Shown: positions 426 through 7,107 of the stretch, in pieces
Position numbering within the stretch: position 1 is the first letter of the stretch
Layout of the letters: the number at the start of each line of letters is the position of its first letter
From: Peptoniphilus duerdenii ATCC BAA-1640
Lineage (GTDB): Bacteria; Bacillota; Clostridia; Tissierellales; Peptoniphilaceae
Direction of reading: 5' to 3'
Length of the DNA: 64,000 nucleotides
Assembly (NCBI RefSeq): GCF_000146345.1
Contig: NZ_GL397071.1
Coordinates: 313,763-377,762 of the forward strand
Notes under the pieces: generated by a model
The model's database searches: none
What the model saw: the letters and a program-made list of their open reading frames with translations, nothing else
Told to the model about the DNA's origin: nothing
Made by a program: the position numbers and the translations under genes

Positions 426-608
426 ATGGACAAAAATTTTTTAGTTCTAAATGAACAAGAATTAATGCTAGTTGATGGTGGATCATTTTTGATAGGATGT
501 GCAGTTGTCGGTTGTATTGCACTTTTTGGTCTAGGAGTATATACTGGATATAAAGATCCTAAGGATCAAAAAATAAACCGTTATAGATTGGAGGCGACTT
601 TTCTATGA
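426..608 (+). CDS. Double-glycine-leader bacteriocin-like peptide precursor
   Basis: A 60-residue precursor. The first 19 residues form a classic double-glycine leader: hydrophobic and acidic positions (LNEQELMLV) followed by DGG. Processing after the GG would release about 41 residues that begin hydrophobic and glycine-rich (SFLIGCAVVGC) and end basic/polar, the usual layout of class II unmodified bacteriocins or ComC/Blp-type peptides. Two cysteines in the mature part could form a disulfide. The stop codon overlaps the next ATG (ATGA), suggesting a coupled partner. No PCAT-type peptidase/ABC exporter is in the window, so export would depend on one encoded elsewhere. A signalling-peptide role cannot be excluded. 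Confidence 0.7.
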   Translation: MDKNFLVLNEQELMLVDGGSFLIGCAVVGCIALFGLGVYTGYKDPKDQKINRYRLEATFL

Positions 609-1964: not shown

Positions 1965-1992
1965 AAAACTCCTCCCGAAGGAGGAATTAATA
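1965..1992 (-). terminator. Terminator of the double-cubane reductase operon
   Basis: On the minus strand AATTCCTCC and GGAGGAGTT form a stem around a stable TTCG tetraloop, followed by TTTATTTTTTT. It lies directly behind the stop codon of the last gene of the operon. Confidence 0.9.
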
Positions 1993-1998
1993 ATAAGG

Positions 1999-2253
1999 TT
2001 AGCAAAATCTTCCACGGTTTGGATCAATTTTACTTTCTGTATCAAAGAATGTGTCTATTTTTATATTATTTTCATCTGCTATTTTCTTTATCTTTTCTCT
2101 ATCTTCTTCATTTTCATAAAGAATTGCTATTCCGCAGCAGTGATCTACTTCTCTCGGCGTTGGAACCATTGTTGATTCTATTTTTTCTAGCTTTTGATAA
2201 AGTTCATAGGCTAACTTTGAGTTTGGGACTAGGACATAGTGTAATATTTTCAT
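1999..2253 (-). CDS. DUF3343 protein (putative Se/S carrier-like)
   Basis: An 84-residue protein with the DUF3343 hallmark: a short alpha/beta domain with a conserved PTPRE segment followed by a cysteine pair (VPTPREVDHCCGIA, residues about 31-44) and a C-terminal Cys. Members of this family sit beside anaerobic oxidoreductases and selenium or sulfur metabolism genes; their biochemical role is poorly defined. It is the last gene of the four-gene reductase operon, 15 bases behind the preceding stop, with a strong GGAGG site. I infer an accessory role in cluster assembly or sulfur handling for the reductase. Confidence 0.75.
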   Translation of the reverse strand: MKILHYVLVPNSKLAYELYQKLEKIESTMVPTPREVDHCCGIAILYENEEDREKIKKIADENNIKIDTFFDTESKIDPNRGRFC

Positions 2254-2268: not shown

Positions 2269-3543
2269 TTATCCAAGTATTTCTATGAATGCACCTATTC
2301 TTGTCTTTAGTTGTTCTGCGTCTTCGTCTGTGTAGTCGGTTTCGATTCCTATTACTGGAATGTTGTCTTCTCTTAGTGATTTTTCTACTTTTAATCCTTC
2401 TACATCGTATAGGTTACAGAATTTAAGGTTGACGTCGATTACTCCGTCTGCGTTATATTCTTTTACTAGTCTCTTGATGTCGTCGATTCTTTCCATGTTT
2501 GGTGTGAAGCATGCGCAGTTGATGTGTCCTAGATATCTTCTTGCTAGATTTTCTACCATTGTATCCATGTCTGTAGCTTCTTCGTCTACTAGGTTTTCAC
2601 AGTATCTTAGTCCTGTACACATTTCTTCTCCTACGATTGATGCGCCTAGTGTTTCGATTATATGATGTAGTTTCCAGTTTGGTATTGATAGTGGTGTTCC
2701 TGTTAGAAGGATTCTCTTTGATCCTTCTTCGTATACGGATACACCGTTTTTAACTCTTTCGTCTAGTTCATCACATAGTTTGTTTACCATGGTTGTGAAT
2801 CTTTCTGGATCGTCGAAGAATGCGATTTGGTGGATTAGTAGTACGTCTACTCCACTTATTGGTACATTCTTTTGTTTTCTAAAGTTATTTAGTCTTTGTA
2901 GTGCACGTCTCTTGTTGTTTACTATTTCTATTGCTTTATGAAGTGATTCTTCGGTTATTTTGTTGCCTGTTAGTTCTTCTAGTCTTTCCATGTAACCTCT
3001 GATTTCTTCTTCCCAATGTTTAAAGTCTCTTTCTCTTTTTAGTTGAGGAATATCCATTATGTACATAGGTGCGTCTTCGGCTAATATTTCCCAAGCTTTT
3101 TTCTTTCCATCACAGGTTGTTTCTCCTACGAATAGGTCTGCTATTCTGAAGAATGGACAGGTTCTATCAAATCTTGCACCTAGTGATGCTTTGATTAGTG
3201 GGCAGGTTGCTGTTGGTAGTACTTTTTCTCCACCTGGTACCCAGAATTGTGATCCTGAGCATAGTCCTGTTGGGATTGCTCCTGCTGCTATTACTACTTC
3301 GTCTGGTACGTGGATACAGAATGATCCTACTACTTTTTGTCCGTTTTTTTGTGCTTCTATTAACTCAGCAGGTCTGATTCCGTGTATATCTCCAACTACC
3401 ATGTTGAAATAATCCATTCCCTTTGGTCTGTTTTCTTGTGATAAGAATACATCTGAGAATGCTCCTGGTAGTACTTCACATAGAATATCATGTGTTGCTA
3501 CATCCATTCCTAGATCAGCCCACATCTTATGATTGTCTGTCAT
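2269..3543 (-). CDS. Double-cubane-cluster anaerobic reductase (HgdB/YjiM family)
   Basis: A 424-residue member of the 2-hydroxyacyl-CoA dehydratase beta-subunit superfamily, closest in layout to double-cubane-cluster proteins that carry an Fe-S cluster of [Fe8S9] type and reduce small molecules at low potential when fired by an ATP-dependent activase. Cysteines at about 76, 95, 114, 129 and 144 (VGSFC, GLCSG, TATCPL, RTCPFF, ETTCDG) and later ones in EEMCTG, NCACF and KFCN are candidate cluster ligands. The start is the second ATG: GGAGG lies at the right distance before it, inside the end of the upstream gene, whereas an ATG 15 bases further up has none. The physiological substrate is unknown. 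Confidence 0.8.
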   Translation of the reverse strand: MTDNHKMWADLGMDVATHDILCEVLPGAFSDVFLSQENRPKGMDYFNMVVGDIHGIRPAELIEAQKNGQKVVGSFCIHVPDEVVIAAGAIPTGLCSGSQFWVPGGEKVLPTATCPLIKASLGARFDRTCPFFRIADLFVGETTCDGKKKAWEILAEDAPMYIMDIPQLKRERDFKHWEEEIRGYMERLEELTGNKITEESLHKAIEIVNNKRRALQRLNNFRKQKNVPISGVDVLLIHQIAFFDDPERFTTMVNKLCDELDERVKNGVSVYEEGSKRILLTGTPLSIPNWKLHHIIETLGASIVGEEMCTGLRYCENLVDEEATDMDTMVENLARRYLGHINCACFTPNMERIDDIKRLVKEYNADGVIDVNLKFCNLYDVEGLKVEKSLREDNIPVIGIETDYTDEDAEQLKTRIGAFIEILG

Positions 3544-3547
3544 AAAA

Positions 3548-4327
3548 TTAACCTCCATATTTTAAATAATGTTTAGATCTTTTGTAGCAACCTCTTACTG
3601 CATACATTCCGTCTCTTGGCTTGACTTCATAGCATTTGCTACAAAGATCTTCATTAATGCCATCTATTATCCCTCCGGGACATGTGGCGAAAATTTCATA
3701 CCTTTTTTGTTTGTGAGTTTTGTTTGCGTCTTTAAACTCTGGAGAATACATGTTAAGTACGTTTTTGTAAAGTTGTATCCTCTCGTTCAAATCTATAATA
3801 TATCTTGAATAGAATTTTAAAAGAAATAGTTCATAACCGCCTATGGAGGTTTCTCTTATTTTTTCATAAAGTGAGTCTATCTCCTCTAGGTTTTCCTTTG
3901 CTCTTTCGAAAAGTTCTTCAGAAAATTCATAACGATCTTTTAGGTAGGAATGCAAATCGTAATGATTTACCACGTCCTTTTCTGTTGCTCCTCTTAGTTC
4001 TTCTTTTAAGACATGGCAGTAATCGTCTAAAACGTAGAACTTAGATGAGTAGAGTATCGGGCATTTGTCGGTTTTAAGATACACTAGTGTGGATCTTACT
4101 TGATCACATCCTTCGTGAAATCCATATTCAAAAATATAGCTATCAAGCCCCTCAAGAGGAAGGGGCTTTATGCCAAATCCATATAGAAGTGCTATGTCTA
4201 CGTCGCCAAAATAAGATGCGAGATTATCTGTACTCATCTTGGTTTCTATTGCTGTGACGAAAGACAGCCTTCTTAAATTTTTTAAGTCAGTGAAATTAAA
4301 TATTCCTTTTTCAGGAAGTAGGCTCAT
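3548..4327 (-). CDS. HgdB-like partner protein of the reductase system
   Basis: A 259-residue protein lying between the activase and the double-cubane reductase, overlapping the activase stop (ATGA) and ending four bases before the reductase start. Its layout recalls the first half of 2-hydroxyacyl-CoA dehydratase subunits: a YGFGIKPLPLEG segment where these have an AAG-P-LWG strand, then a Cys-containing stretch (FHEGCDQVR) and a helical part. It ends in a cysteine-rich tail (ATCPGG, LCSKCYEV, GCYK; about residues 215-250) that could bind an Fe-S cluster. It is far shorter than a full subunit (about 380-430). It may be an electron-transfer or scaffold subunit; the assignment is tentative. 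Confidence 0.5.
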   Translation of the reverse strand: MSLLPEKGIFNFTDLKNLRRLSFVTAIETKMSTDNLASYFGDVDIALLYGFGIKPLPLEGLDSYIFEYGFHEGCDQVRSTLVYLKTDKCPILYSSKFYVLDDYCHVLKEELRGATEKDVVNHYDLHSYLKDRYEFSEELFERAKENLEEIDSLYEKIRETSIGGYELFLLKFYSRYIIDLNERIQLYKNVLNMYSPEFKDANKTHKQKRYEIFATCPGGIIDGINEDLCSKCYEVKPRDGMYAVRGCYKRSKHYLKYGG

Positions 4328-5076
4328 GACAATAGCGCCGCTCCTATTGCGCCTGCAAATCTTGCATCAGGGTCGGTGGAAACTTCTGCTCCTAAACGTT
4401 CAGAAAGTTCCTTAGTCATGTAAGGAGAGCTACAGAATCCTCCAGTTAGGAAGTAGTGGTTTGCTCTCGATTTTCTACTTGCCAAAGATACGACCTTTGC
4501 GCAGATGGAGTTAACTACTCCTGCTGCAATATCTTCCTTTGGAGTTCCTCTTCCCATTAGGGAAATAATTTCTGACTCAGCAAATACTGTGCAGGTTGAA
4601 CTGATCTTAACTTCAGTTCCTTTTTCGGCAGATGTAAACATCTCATCTATGGAAAGTCCTAGTCTATTAGCCATGACTTCCAAGAATTTTCCCGTACCTG
4701 CAGAGCATTTATCATTCATAATAAAGTCTACAACCATGCCATTTTCAAGCACTATGATCTTAGTATCTTGGCCGCCTATATCTATTATAGTTGCGTCCCT
4801 TCCTAAGAGAAATTTGGCGCCGTTACCATGACATGTTATTTCAGTCAAGGTTTTATCTGCATAAGGTACCGAAATTCTTCCATAACCGGTAGCCATTATT
4901 CTGGAATCTGAAAGGTCTCCATATTTTTCTTCTAGATAGTCCTTGATCTTAAGGCTGGTTTCCTTTGAATTCCATCCACTTGGCATGAGTATTTTTTCAA
5001 TTATTTTTTCTTTATTCGAATCCATAACTACGACCTTGCTGGCAGTGGATCCAATATCAATTCCTATACAGTACAT
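4324..5076 (-). CDS. Acyl-CoA dehydratase activase, BadF/BadG/HgdC family ATPase
   Basis: A 250-residue ASKHA-fold ATPase. GIDIGSTASK (residues 5-14) is the phosphate-1 motif and IDIGGQDTK (about 98-106) phosphate-2; Cys124 in CSAGTG and Cys162 in SSTCTVFAESE are the two cysteines that in this family hold one [4Fe-4S] cluster at the dimer interface. ATP hydrolysis drives a low-potential electron onto the partner reductase. First gene of the operon. The start is the second ATG because GAGGTG precedes it at proper spacing; an ATG five codons up has no ribosome site. The genes behind it make the double-cubane protein the likely client. Confidence 0.9.
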   Translation of the reverse strand: MYCIGIDIGSTASKVVVMDSNKEKIIEKILMPSGWNSKETSLKIKDYLEEKYGDLSDSRIMATGYGRISVPYADKTLTEITCHGNGAKFLLGRDATIIDIGGQDTKIIVLENGMVVDFIMNDKCSAGTGKFLEVMANRLGLSIDEMFTSAEKGTEVKISSTCTVFAESEIISLMGRGTPKEDIAAGVVNSICAKVVSLASRKSRANHYFLTGGFCSSPYMTKELSERLGAEVSTDPDARFAGAIGAALLS

Positions 5077-5110
5077 ATTCACCTCATACATTTAAATTTA
5101 CCTTAGCTAT

Positions 5111-5139
5111 ATTCTACAACAAAATAATAAAAAATTCAA
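5111..5139 (-). promoter_or_regulatory. Sigma-A-type promoter of the reductase operon
   Basis: On the minus strand TTGAAT (5139-5134) and TAGAAT (5116-5111) are separated by 17 bases, about 35 bases upstream of the activase start. No operator-like repeat was noticed. Confidence 0.65.
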
Positions 5140-5214: not shown

Positions 5215-5745
5215 CTAGTCCTTTAAATACTCTTCTATTTTTAAAATAAGTTCATCTATCATCTCTTCTGTTAAGTTCATATCCGTCTTGAAGGAATGGG
5301 CTTTTTCTATAATCTCGTCTCTTACTTCTTTTTCAATCTCTATAGTTTCGTCACTTTCAAGCCTCTTTACATACTCTCCAAGCTTTTTCCACTTGGTCAC
5401 AACCCTGTGCTCATCCTTTATATGATCCATTAAATATTCCAGAGTCCATCTTAAGTTGTTAGGTGTGGCTACAGATTTATGCGGAAGATTAATTCCCATT
5501 TTGTTTGCAACTTTTAAAAAGTCGTATAATTTGTTCCTATCCATATTTGAGAAAAAAATGAAACTTATGTCATGTGAGAAATTTTTATAATCCGGTTCAC
5601 TTTTTTTATAATTTAAGATATCTTCCATAGGAACTTTTAAATCCTTATCACCTGTATAGATGGTTTCAATTTCAAATTCTTTAGCGATAGCTTGTAATTT
5701 TAAGTTTAAATCCTTTGTAAATCCGTACAAAATTATTTTATCCAT
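5215..5745 (-). CDS. DUF3783 domain protein
   Basis: A 176-residue soluble protein. The N-terminal part (MDKIILYGFTKDLNLKL) and a central segment ending in TPNNLRWTLEYLMDHIKDEH match the DUF3783 pattern, in which a conserved T-x-x-N-x-x-W-T motif follows a short alpha/beta region. The last 60 residues are highly charged and helical and are not typical of the domain. The family has no established function. It is a monocistronic minus-strand gene with its own terminator, divergent from the EamA gene. Confidence 0.55.
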   Translation of the reverse strand: MDKIILYGFTKDLNLKLQAIAKEFEIETIYTGDKDLKVPMEDILNYKKSEPDYKNFSHDISFIFFSNMDRNKLYDFLKVANKMGINLPHKSVATPNNLRWTLEYLMDHIKDEHRVVTKWKKLGEYVKRLESDETIEIEKEVRDEIIEKAHSFKTDMNLTEEMIDELILKIEEYLKD

Positions 5746-6824: not shown

Positions 6825-7107
6825 ACAGTCACCCTGAGCGAAAATGACGAAGCCCCTAGGCTGAGTCATTGGAGTCGAATGGGTATAGCCATGGTGTGGT
6901 TATAAATGGGTGACTTTAGTTGGAAGAATTTTTGTAGCCTCGAAGCCCTAGCCGAAATCTTCGATTTTGTCGCAGGTCTTGTGCAAAGAGTTCCAAAGAA
7001 GCCGAATGAAATGAAGGCTGATTTGCAGAACTCGACTGCCTCTCAGGGTGACTGCAGTTGGGAAGTTTGTTATAGCCTTCGGCTGTGGAAGCAAGATGCT
7101 TCCGCTA
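6825..7107. repeat. Clustered dispersed repeat modules
   Basis: At 6825-6888 is a fixed-arm element (CAGTCACCCTGAG ... GTCGAATGGGTATA) with its own palindromic centre. At 6937-7053 the roughly 105-base module (GAAGCCCTAGCCGAAATC ... CAGAACTCGACTGCC) is flanked by the same arm CTCAGGGTGACTG. At 7073-7107 is a GGAAGC/GCTTCC module. Short ORFs across this block are rejected as genes. Confidence 0.8.

Follow-up and report, generated by a model that had tools for sequence, protein, structure and literature searches.

What does an operon do that joins an activase and a double-cubane reductase to an undersized third protein, and what is that third protein for? The locus lies in a 64,000-nucleotide stretch of the Peptoniphilus duerdenii ATCC BAA-1640 genome (contig NZ_GL397071.1), called the window here. 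The features involved, with positions in the window, are:

5111..5139, minus strand: weak sigma-70-like site upstream of ACT, TTGAAT-17-TAGAAT, 9/12 match
4324..5076, minus strand: ACT, acyl-CoA dehydratase-type activase / DCCP reductase, 250 aa from ATG 5076 (TIGR00241, PF01869)
3548..4327, minus strand: MID, truncated HGD-D-fold protein, 259 aa (fold match to DCCP/BzdN/HadC and profile-profile match)
3552..3556, minus strand: GGAGG Shine-Dalgarno site for RED, within the end of MID, read directly
2269..3543, minus strand: RED, double-cubane cluster protein (DCCP-type reductase), 424 aa from ATG 3543 (NF040772, PDB 6eno/7yyl)
1999..2253, minus strand: DUF3343 / Se_S_carrier-like protein, 84 aa (PF11823)
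1967..1988, minus strand: intrinsic-terminator-like hairpin 3' of the DUF3343 gene, pattern match

All four frames are present, in the minus-strand order ACT, MID, RED, DUF3343, and the four-gene operon proposed in the first-pass annotation is confirmed: MID, RED and DUF3343 follow one another on one strand at 31 of 31 loci of the family that have MID. The ACT frame opens at 5091; its start at 5076 has a GAGG-type Shine-Dalgarno site, in agreement with the end given at first. The DUF3343 gene (1999-2253) falls outside the interval 2269-5076 of that annotation. Overlapping genes had also been described, and ACT and MID do share 4 bases (ATGA). The RED frame opens at 3558 and would overlap MID only if an upstream ATG were used; we place the RED start at ATG 3543, 4 bases past the MID stop, because GGAGG lies 8 bases upstream of this codon and the starts of homologues agree, and so the second overlap falls away. 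The terminator stands, as a terminator-like hairpin (1988-1967) directly after the DUF3343 gene, matched by pattern in a region with 5 such sites versus 3.0 expected. The 'clear promoter' does not, since it is a 9/12 match only and sigma-70-like sites in the region number 13 versus 15.6 in shuffles, which is not above chance. Nothing convincing in the way of Crp/FNR-like palindromes was found before ACT. An upstream DUF3783 gene was considered as part of the operon and rejected; its homologues occur at 2 of 30 relative loci and are not adjacent.

Family models bear out the identities given to the activase, the double-cubane reductase and the DUF3343 protein. ACT scores 249.9 bits against TIGR00241 (cut-off 125.4) and matches PF01869 at E 2.4e-55, and the DUF3343 protein matches PF11823 at E 1.4e-14. 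RED scores 496.6 bits against the double-cubane cluster protein (DCCP) model NF040772, over its cut-off of 350, and the alignment with PDB 6eno/7yyl (E ~1e-146) spans its full length. All six ligand cysteines are there (C81, C119, C149, C314, C348, C381); in the profile alignment they correspond to BzdN C36/73/100/263/293/327, as numbered in an excerpt of PMC11971306, and each is a cysteine in 28/28 reference rows. RED also has the activase partner expected of a DCCP, in its own operon and at 27 of 31 loci. The Carboxydothermus hydrogenoformans DCCP/DCCP-R (PDB 6eno, 7yyl, 7yzm) is alike in its full-length alignment, its six ligand cysteines and an activase gene in the same operon; it is a homodimer (PMC11971306, excerpt), whereas here MID and DUF3343 are added to the unit. 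These matches make it a DCCP/DCCP-reductase operon that has two further genes, one for a half-size HGD-D paralogue (MID) and one for DUF3343.

The gene order is that of hadIBC as well, activator-alpha-beta. Together with a weak match of RED to the HadC model, it could suggest a standard two-subunit 2-hydroxyacyl-CoA dehydratase of the HadIBC type whose alpha subunit is atypical, a reading that we regard as highly improbable. The HadC match (122.5 bits) is far under the cut-off of 700, while the DCCP cut-off is exceeded; HadB gives 39.2 bits against a cut-off of 750. HadB and HadC of 2-hydroxyisocaproyl-CoA dehydratase (3o3m, 3o3n) have the HGD-D fold in common with the proteins here, but RED retains the double-cubane ligands and MID matches neither the HadB nor the BzdO model. 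The first-pass annotation saw no CoA-transferase or acyl-CoA dehydrogenase gene nearby; neither of these, nor an enoyl-CoA hydratase, is among the 25 families listed, of 73, for 95 flanking proteins, and within the operon no gene suggests CoA chemistry. Within the same 25 families, the neighbourhood comparison did not show a CoA-pathway gene as a constant companion of the operon.

MID itself escapes the family models. It has no Pfam or NCBIfam family match, and neither HGD-D (PF06050) nor DUF523 (the TudS family) appears at E 1; NF040772 alone comes up in NCBIfam, at E 0.047, and an HGD-D search of the organism's own genome finds RED and no other protein. The HMM search thus returned no known full-function family. 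Profile comparison with hhalign, however, matches MID to DCCP-like proteins of ~385 aa at E 5.6e-15 over 218 columns, and the predicted structure (pLDDT 90.9) matches HGD-D chains at Z 13.9-18.8 over 234-249 residues, the next family reaching Z 3.5; the match is closer to BzdN (Z 18.8) than to BzdO (Z 14.4). Because of the profile comparison and the predicted fold, we take MID to be a shortened HGD-D protein, as the description of it as a shortened HgdB-like partner had proposed. The C-terminal part alone gives no significant profile match to DCCP C-domains, and in a second model, of the Finegoldia MID (mean pLDDT 75), the C-terminal 60 residues mostly have pLDDT <50, so that this model lends the C-terminal topology no support. 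Two further searches gave matches that were set aside, ferritins and two other proteins for the MID profile against PDB sequences (E 0.04 or worse, chance) and NusB and others for phmmer against the PDB (E 0.03 or worse).

Cysteine conservation was counted in one alignment that combined 32 MIDs with 28 reference proteins. The invariant residues of MID are R19, C74, Y83, K88, C89, P90, C104 and C247, and the positions of RED C119, C134, C149 and C381 are cysteines in 32/32 MIDs. C74, C89 and C104 have the spacing 15/15 of RED C119, C134 and C149. In terms of cluster ligands, the second, third and sixth are kept in 32/32 (C74, C104, C247), the first (RED C81) and fifth (C348) are lost in 32/32, and the fourth (C314) is lost in 23; the position of the invariant Glu of RED, E87, is Glu in 10/32 MIDs only. 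The C-terminal cysteines C216, C229, C232 and C247 had been described as a cluster of MID's own. C247 is indeed conserved in 32/32, with C216 in 22 of 32, but the kept cysteines are mainly N-terminal (C74, C89, C104), and the idea of a separate C-terminal cluster holds only in part. C247 is paired with RED C381 on the basis of the joint alignment and of how far the structural match extends.

With two ligands always lost and a third one usually so, a double cubane like that of RED is unlikely in MID. From the cysteine map we infer instead that MID would carry one three-cysteine [4Fe-4S] cluster with an open site, comparable to those of BzdO, HadB and TudS. The closest parallel is class I benzoyl-CoA reductase (BzdNO / MbdNO), in which a double-cubane subunit has a sister whose cluster is bound by three cysteines (PMC11971306, excerpt), much as RED may have in MID. 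At residue level, C247 and the proposed equivalence of C74, C104 and C247 with BzdO C95/128/380 (ligands as given in the same excerpt) are tentative assignments. BzdO differs in being ~440 aa long with a CoA channel; MID, at 259 aa, is without most of the C-terminal domain. TudS / DUF523 desulfidase is set apart by its description, with a size and cysteine spacing (C10, C43, C104) unlike those of MID. It does not appear among the structural matches listed for MID, though the two may still be related.

The arrangement is conserved far beyond chance. MID is present in 31 of the 33 family genomes that carry this RED, and ACT precedes MID at 27 of the 31 loci; at the 4/31 from which ACT has moved away, MID still stands directly before RED. 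(The 32 MID genomes become 31 on leaving out G023, where the match is inside an 870-aa ORF that by eye resembles alanyl-tRNA synthetase.) A profile search of the genome contigs for MID relatives yielded 21 loci, and a peptide-pattern search of them for close relatives none. In the tree, the MIDs are monophyletic (96/70; recovered in 98% of 200 bootstrap trees), as are the REDs of MID operons (100/100; nine in the tree); a 412-aa row labelled LONG (L136) is a divergent HGD-D protein outside the LONG clade.

A functionless, decaying remnant of a full-length paralogue might explain the truncation of MID, its frameshift in one genome (G088, L044) and its orphan state in Treponema vincentii, where RED remains only as a fragment. 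This is scarcely tenable given purifying selection in 7/7 pairs (dN/dS 0.08-0.27), cysteines that stay invariant across 24-43% identity, the confident fold and synteny at 31/31 loci. MID does diverge quickly: its dN/dS exceeds that of RED ~3- to 10-fold, an unusual ratio for a catalytic subunit. Fast divergence, few invariant cysteines and the constant place before RED, even where ACT is elsewhere, would suit a maturation factor, that is, an HGD-D-fold scaffold or chaperone that assists in building or inserting the [8Fe-9S] cluster of RED and does not itself take part in turnover. We consider this rather doubtful. The same RED occurs without MID in 2/33 family genomes and in MID-free operons of the phylum, and therefore cluster assembly presumably does not require MID; the characterised Carboxydothermus DCCP, too, is not known to have a MID-like partner.

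Which substrate, then, might the operon serve? An excerpt of PMC10418091 calls DCCP 'provisionally linked to selenium metabolism', and one of PMC5322559 places DUF3343, activase and HGD subunits together with YedE/YedF in Slackia. In the family, selD is present in 33/33 genomes with this RED versus 53/97 without (86/130 overall; raw genome counts). The association is weaker by genus (13/13 with RED versus 16/26 without, p 0.016) and within genus g3, which is Anaerococcus by its named members, stands at 8/8 versus 14/23 (p 0.068). The window's own genome has selD (336.9 bits) and selA, and YedE was not found in it. In three Fenollaria-group genomes (L048-L050) the operon is divergent from genes for seleno-YedE (TIGR04112, 494.7 bits in L048), a TusA-like protein and DUF3343; Se/S genes of the tested kinds are close by at 3/31 MID loci only. 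Among MID-free loci of this RED, cysteine-desulfurase-like, YedF, SelD or YedE genes occur at 10/19 (raw count). Compared with the DUF3343/YedE/YedF/SelD selenium genes (PMC5322559, excerpt), the operon likewise includes DUF3343, and in some relatives it has a YedE, TusA-like or desulfurase gene as a neighbour; it differs in the window, where no Se gene adjoins and the selD-YedF-DUF3343-desulfurase cluster is ~30 kb away.

In Anaerococcus, hcp and a Crp-type gene stand next to the operon instead of Se/S genes: hcp is immediately upstream at 5/8 loci and the Crp-type gene immediately downstream at 5/8. The operon could then be a partner of hybrid cluster protein that reduces small nitrogen compounds under nitrosative or hydroxylamine/azide-like stress; acetylene, hydrazine and azide are in vitro substrates of DCCP (PMC11971306, excerpt), and a Desulfovibrio '2-hydroxyglutaryl-CoA dehydratase D-component' goes up on nitrate (PMC5701242, excerpt). 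We judge this role unlikely, as the pattern is limited to 1 of 11 genera with MID, a terminator-like GC hairpin and T run (by eye) separate hcp from ACT, and the Desulfovibrio protein may not be a DCCP. Excerpts of PMC12915319 and PMC1274295 show no DCCP-like gene in HcpR regulons.

The most likely role of the operon is ATP-driven reduction tied to selenium or sulfur handling. By analogy with characterised relatives, ACT would use ATP and its [4Fe-4S] cluster to charge the [8Fe-9S] double cubane of RED with low-potential electrons. MID, with one [4Fe-4S] cluster and a free iron site, would act beside RED in an accessory or acceptor role and not as a second double-cubane unit. The gene company suggests a reaction serving selenium or sulfur handling and not CoA-ester dehydration; Se/S would be reductively released or captured, with DUF3343 as a small carrier. 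As a whole, this proposal of an ATP-driven reductase with an accessory MID is held tentatively, at somewhat short of even confidence. A bolder version, speculative and on balance improbable, is that MID founds an undescribed half-size branch of the double-cubane/BCR-I family. Loss of ligands 1, 5 and usually 4 would have reduced a double-cubane unit to one open [4Fe-4S] site, paralleling BzdO and TudS, and MID would pair with RED in CoA-independent, ATP-driven reduction or release of Se/S species that DUF3343 receives or delivers.

The selenium-gene link of this reductase and the conserved arrangement go beyond the first-pass annotation. DCCPs are widespread ATP-driven reductases with a biological role stated as unknown (PMC11971306, excerpt). 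A conserved extra subunit, regular ligand loss and selD in all hosts narrow the substrate search for them, and provide a series of naturally occurring ligand deletions in the double-cubane site. If the bolder version is true, the DCCP family would gain a defined physiological reaction.

The operon that the first-pass annotation had claimed is present on the minus strand, with its activase (ACT), shortened middle protein of 259 residues (MID), double-cubane reductase (RED) and DUF3343 genes in the following surroundings.

Beyond the DUF3783 gene, opposite strand to the operon: EamA transporter
5215–5745 (−): DUF3783 gene, upstream of ACT
5216–5196: hairpin of the DUF3783 gene itself, between that gene and the operon
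4324–5076 (−): ACT
3548–4327 (−): MID
2269–3543 (−): RED
1999–2253 (−): DUF3343

The ACT gene, starting at 5076, shares ATGA with the MID gene. The likeliest start of RED is 3543, 4 bases past the MID stop and preceded by GGAGG, and a gap of 15 bases precedes DUF3343. The terminator also holds, as a terminator-like hairpin downstream of DUF3343 (1988–1967); the promoter, described as clear, does not, the promoter-like site at 5139–5111 being not above chance. In large part, the earlier reading of an ACT–RED engine with a shortened HgdB-like partner stands; the promoter falls away. Elsewhere in the window, an interspersed repeat of about 100–115 bases, 95–97% alike, occurs in both orientations (1364–1461, 1811–1925, 6940–7054) and falls within doubtful ORFs, such as 1624–2175. 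A 60-residue ORF at 426–608 (+) has, by eye, a LNEQELMLVDGG leader, which we take to be a double-glycine-type motif, and then a hydrophobic tail; its sequence looks like that of a class II bacteriocin-type peptide.

The ACT–RED engine is already known. ACT matches the family models TIGR00241 and PF01869, and RED, the sole PF06050 match in its genome, scores 496.6 bits against the NF040772 double-cubane equivalog (cut-off 350) and far under the cut-offs of the HadC, BzdN and BcrC models; its closest PDB chains are Carboxydothermus DCCP (7yyl and 6eno, E ~1e-146). The DUF3343 protein matches PF11823, presently named Se/S carrier-like.

No family names MID, in keeping with its description as a non-standard subunit: Pfam at E 1 gives two rows, both below cut-off, and NCBIfam a single match (NF040772, E 0.047). 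Profile–profile comparison relates it to ten ~385-residue DCCP-like proteins (E 5.6e-15, 218 columns) and to the RED alignment (E 5.5e-7, 162 columns). The AlphaFold2 model from 22 sequences (pLDDT 90.9, pTM 0.88) retrieves HGD-D chains with Foldseek (E 1.4e-6 to 1e-3 in the best 14 rows), and VIA lists ten HGD-D entries at Z 13.9–18.8 over 234–249 residues, the next being at Z 3.5. The match extends into the last strand of the HGD-D C-terminal domain; therefore, judging from the model, MID seems to comprise the N-terminal and helical domains plus a minimal C-terminal domain.

The cysteines can be compared with known ligands. For the double cubane of BzdN six ligands are given in PMC11971306, and for the aqua-[4Fe-4S] cluster of BzdO three; TudS appears there as a one-domain relative. 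Alignment with BzdN gives C81, C119, C149, C314, C348 and C381 as the RED ligands. When 28 reference rows and 32 MIDs are aligned together, every MID has cysteine at RED positions 119, 134, 149 and 381 and lacks the C81 and C348 equivalents, and only nine retain that of C314. C74, C89 and C104 of MID repeat the spacing (15, 15) of RED C119, C134 and C149. Two further alignments, one of 24 relatives from Peptoniphilaceae genomes and one combining the window protein and 21 loci from named organisms (among others Anaerococcus, Peptoniphilus indolicus, Finegoldia magna, Ezakiella, Fenollaria, Lagierella, Gallicola, a Eubacteriales MAG and Treponema vincentii), share R19, C74, Y83, C89, P90, C104 and C247 as invariant residues. 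C247 is the weak point: its region alone gives no significant alignment, and a second structure model was no help in placing it. The overall pattern of kept and lost cysteines is what would be expected of a predicted single site with three ligands.

MID relatives occur in 31 of 130 Peptoniphilaceae genomes (32 matches, one, in G023, rejected as false). Of 398 phylum genomes, 60 have a match to the MID profile; the window's own is one of them, and elsewhere the matches are ~385-residue HGD-D proteins (E down to 2.5e-17). By tblastn, all 31 loci have MID–RED–DUF3343 in that order on one strand, and ACT precedes them in 27. The other four (L051–L053, L055) belong to one genus, where the sole activase match has moved beside a ~385-residue RED elsewhere and probably serves both reductases. 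Long-type RED, resembling the window's, is found in 33 of the 130 genomes; G061 and G062 have it without MID, in the order RED–DUF3343–ACT, one of them with a ~385-residue RED directly upstream, and G063 has an intermediate MID of 315 residues. Two Ezakiella-group loci (L043, 4642–6854, and L047) carry, divergent from the MID operon, a ~381-residue DCCP-like gene and, immediately after it, a ~355-residue gene that by eye reads as a putative pyridine-nucleotide oxidoreductase.

MIDs group into a single clade (96/70, and in 98% of bootstrap trees), as do the nine REDs of MID operons included (100/100), in a tree whose long branches leave the attachment point unsure. Identity to the window protein is 24–43% for MID and 71–82% for fifteen RED orthologues; dN/dS is 0.08–0.27 for MID (seven close pairs) and 0.01–0.10 for RED. 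By these sequence measures MID is kept under selection, though loosely. Treponema vincentii has an orphan MID and a 99-residue RED remnant, probably a transferred, decaying system; in strain OMZ 806 the MID branches inside those of Peptoniphilaceae, and the RED fragment, its cysteines lost, lies elsewhere in the chromosome.

As to function, no operon gene requires CoA chemistry, and no CoA enzymes are among the 25 commonest of 73 Pfam families in 95 flanking proteins. A candidate role is selenium or sulfur handling. selD is above cut-off in 33/33 genomes with long-type RED vs 53/97 others (Fisher 9e-8, inflated by relatedness of the genomes); by genus the figures are 13/13 vs 16/26 (p 0.016), and within the Anaerococcus group 8/8 vs 14/23 (p 0.07). 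A ~385-residue RED lies at most 100 bases from selD, on the same strand, in 7 of the 48 family genomes having it. Cysteine-desulfurase-like, YedF, SelD or YedE genes are near RED in 10 of 19 MID-free long-type loci (a raw count, from mostly best matches rather than a random sample) and near 3 of 31 MID loci, all of the Fenollaria group, where the operon is divergent from seleno-YedE, TusA-like and DUF3343 genes. In the genome of the window itself, selA is present, a selD–YedF–DUF3343–desulfurase cluster lies some 30 kb away from the operon, and no YedE is found. PMC10418091 has DCCP 'provisionally linked' to selenium, and PMC5322559 lists activase and HGD genes together with YedE/YedF/DUF3343 in Slackia. 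Many family members (G063, G087, G086, G052 and others) have selD read through one TGA, therefore probably a selenoprotein; selD of the window's genome has no TGA. Against a selenium or sulfur role stands the company in Anaerococcus, where each of two genes is near the operon in 5 of 8 loci:

L038–L042: hybrid cluster protein gene (hcp), directly upstream of ACT–MID–RED–DUF3343
L036 and L038–L041: Crp-family gene, directly downstream

Among the open-access titles and abstracts listed by the searches, none describes DCCP with a shortened HGD-D protein as its partner. The suggested role of the operon in selenium or sulfur handling is unproven; its half-size partner with regular ligand loss is undescribed in the literature searched.
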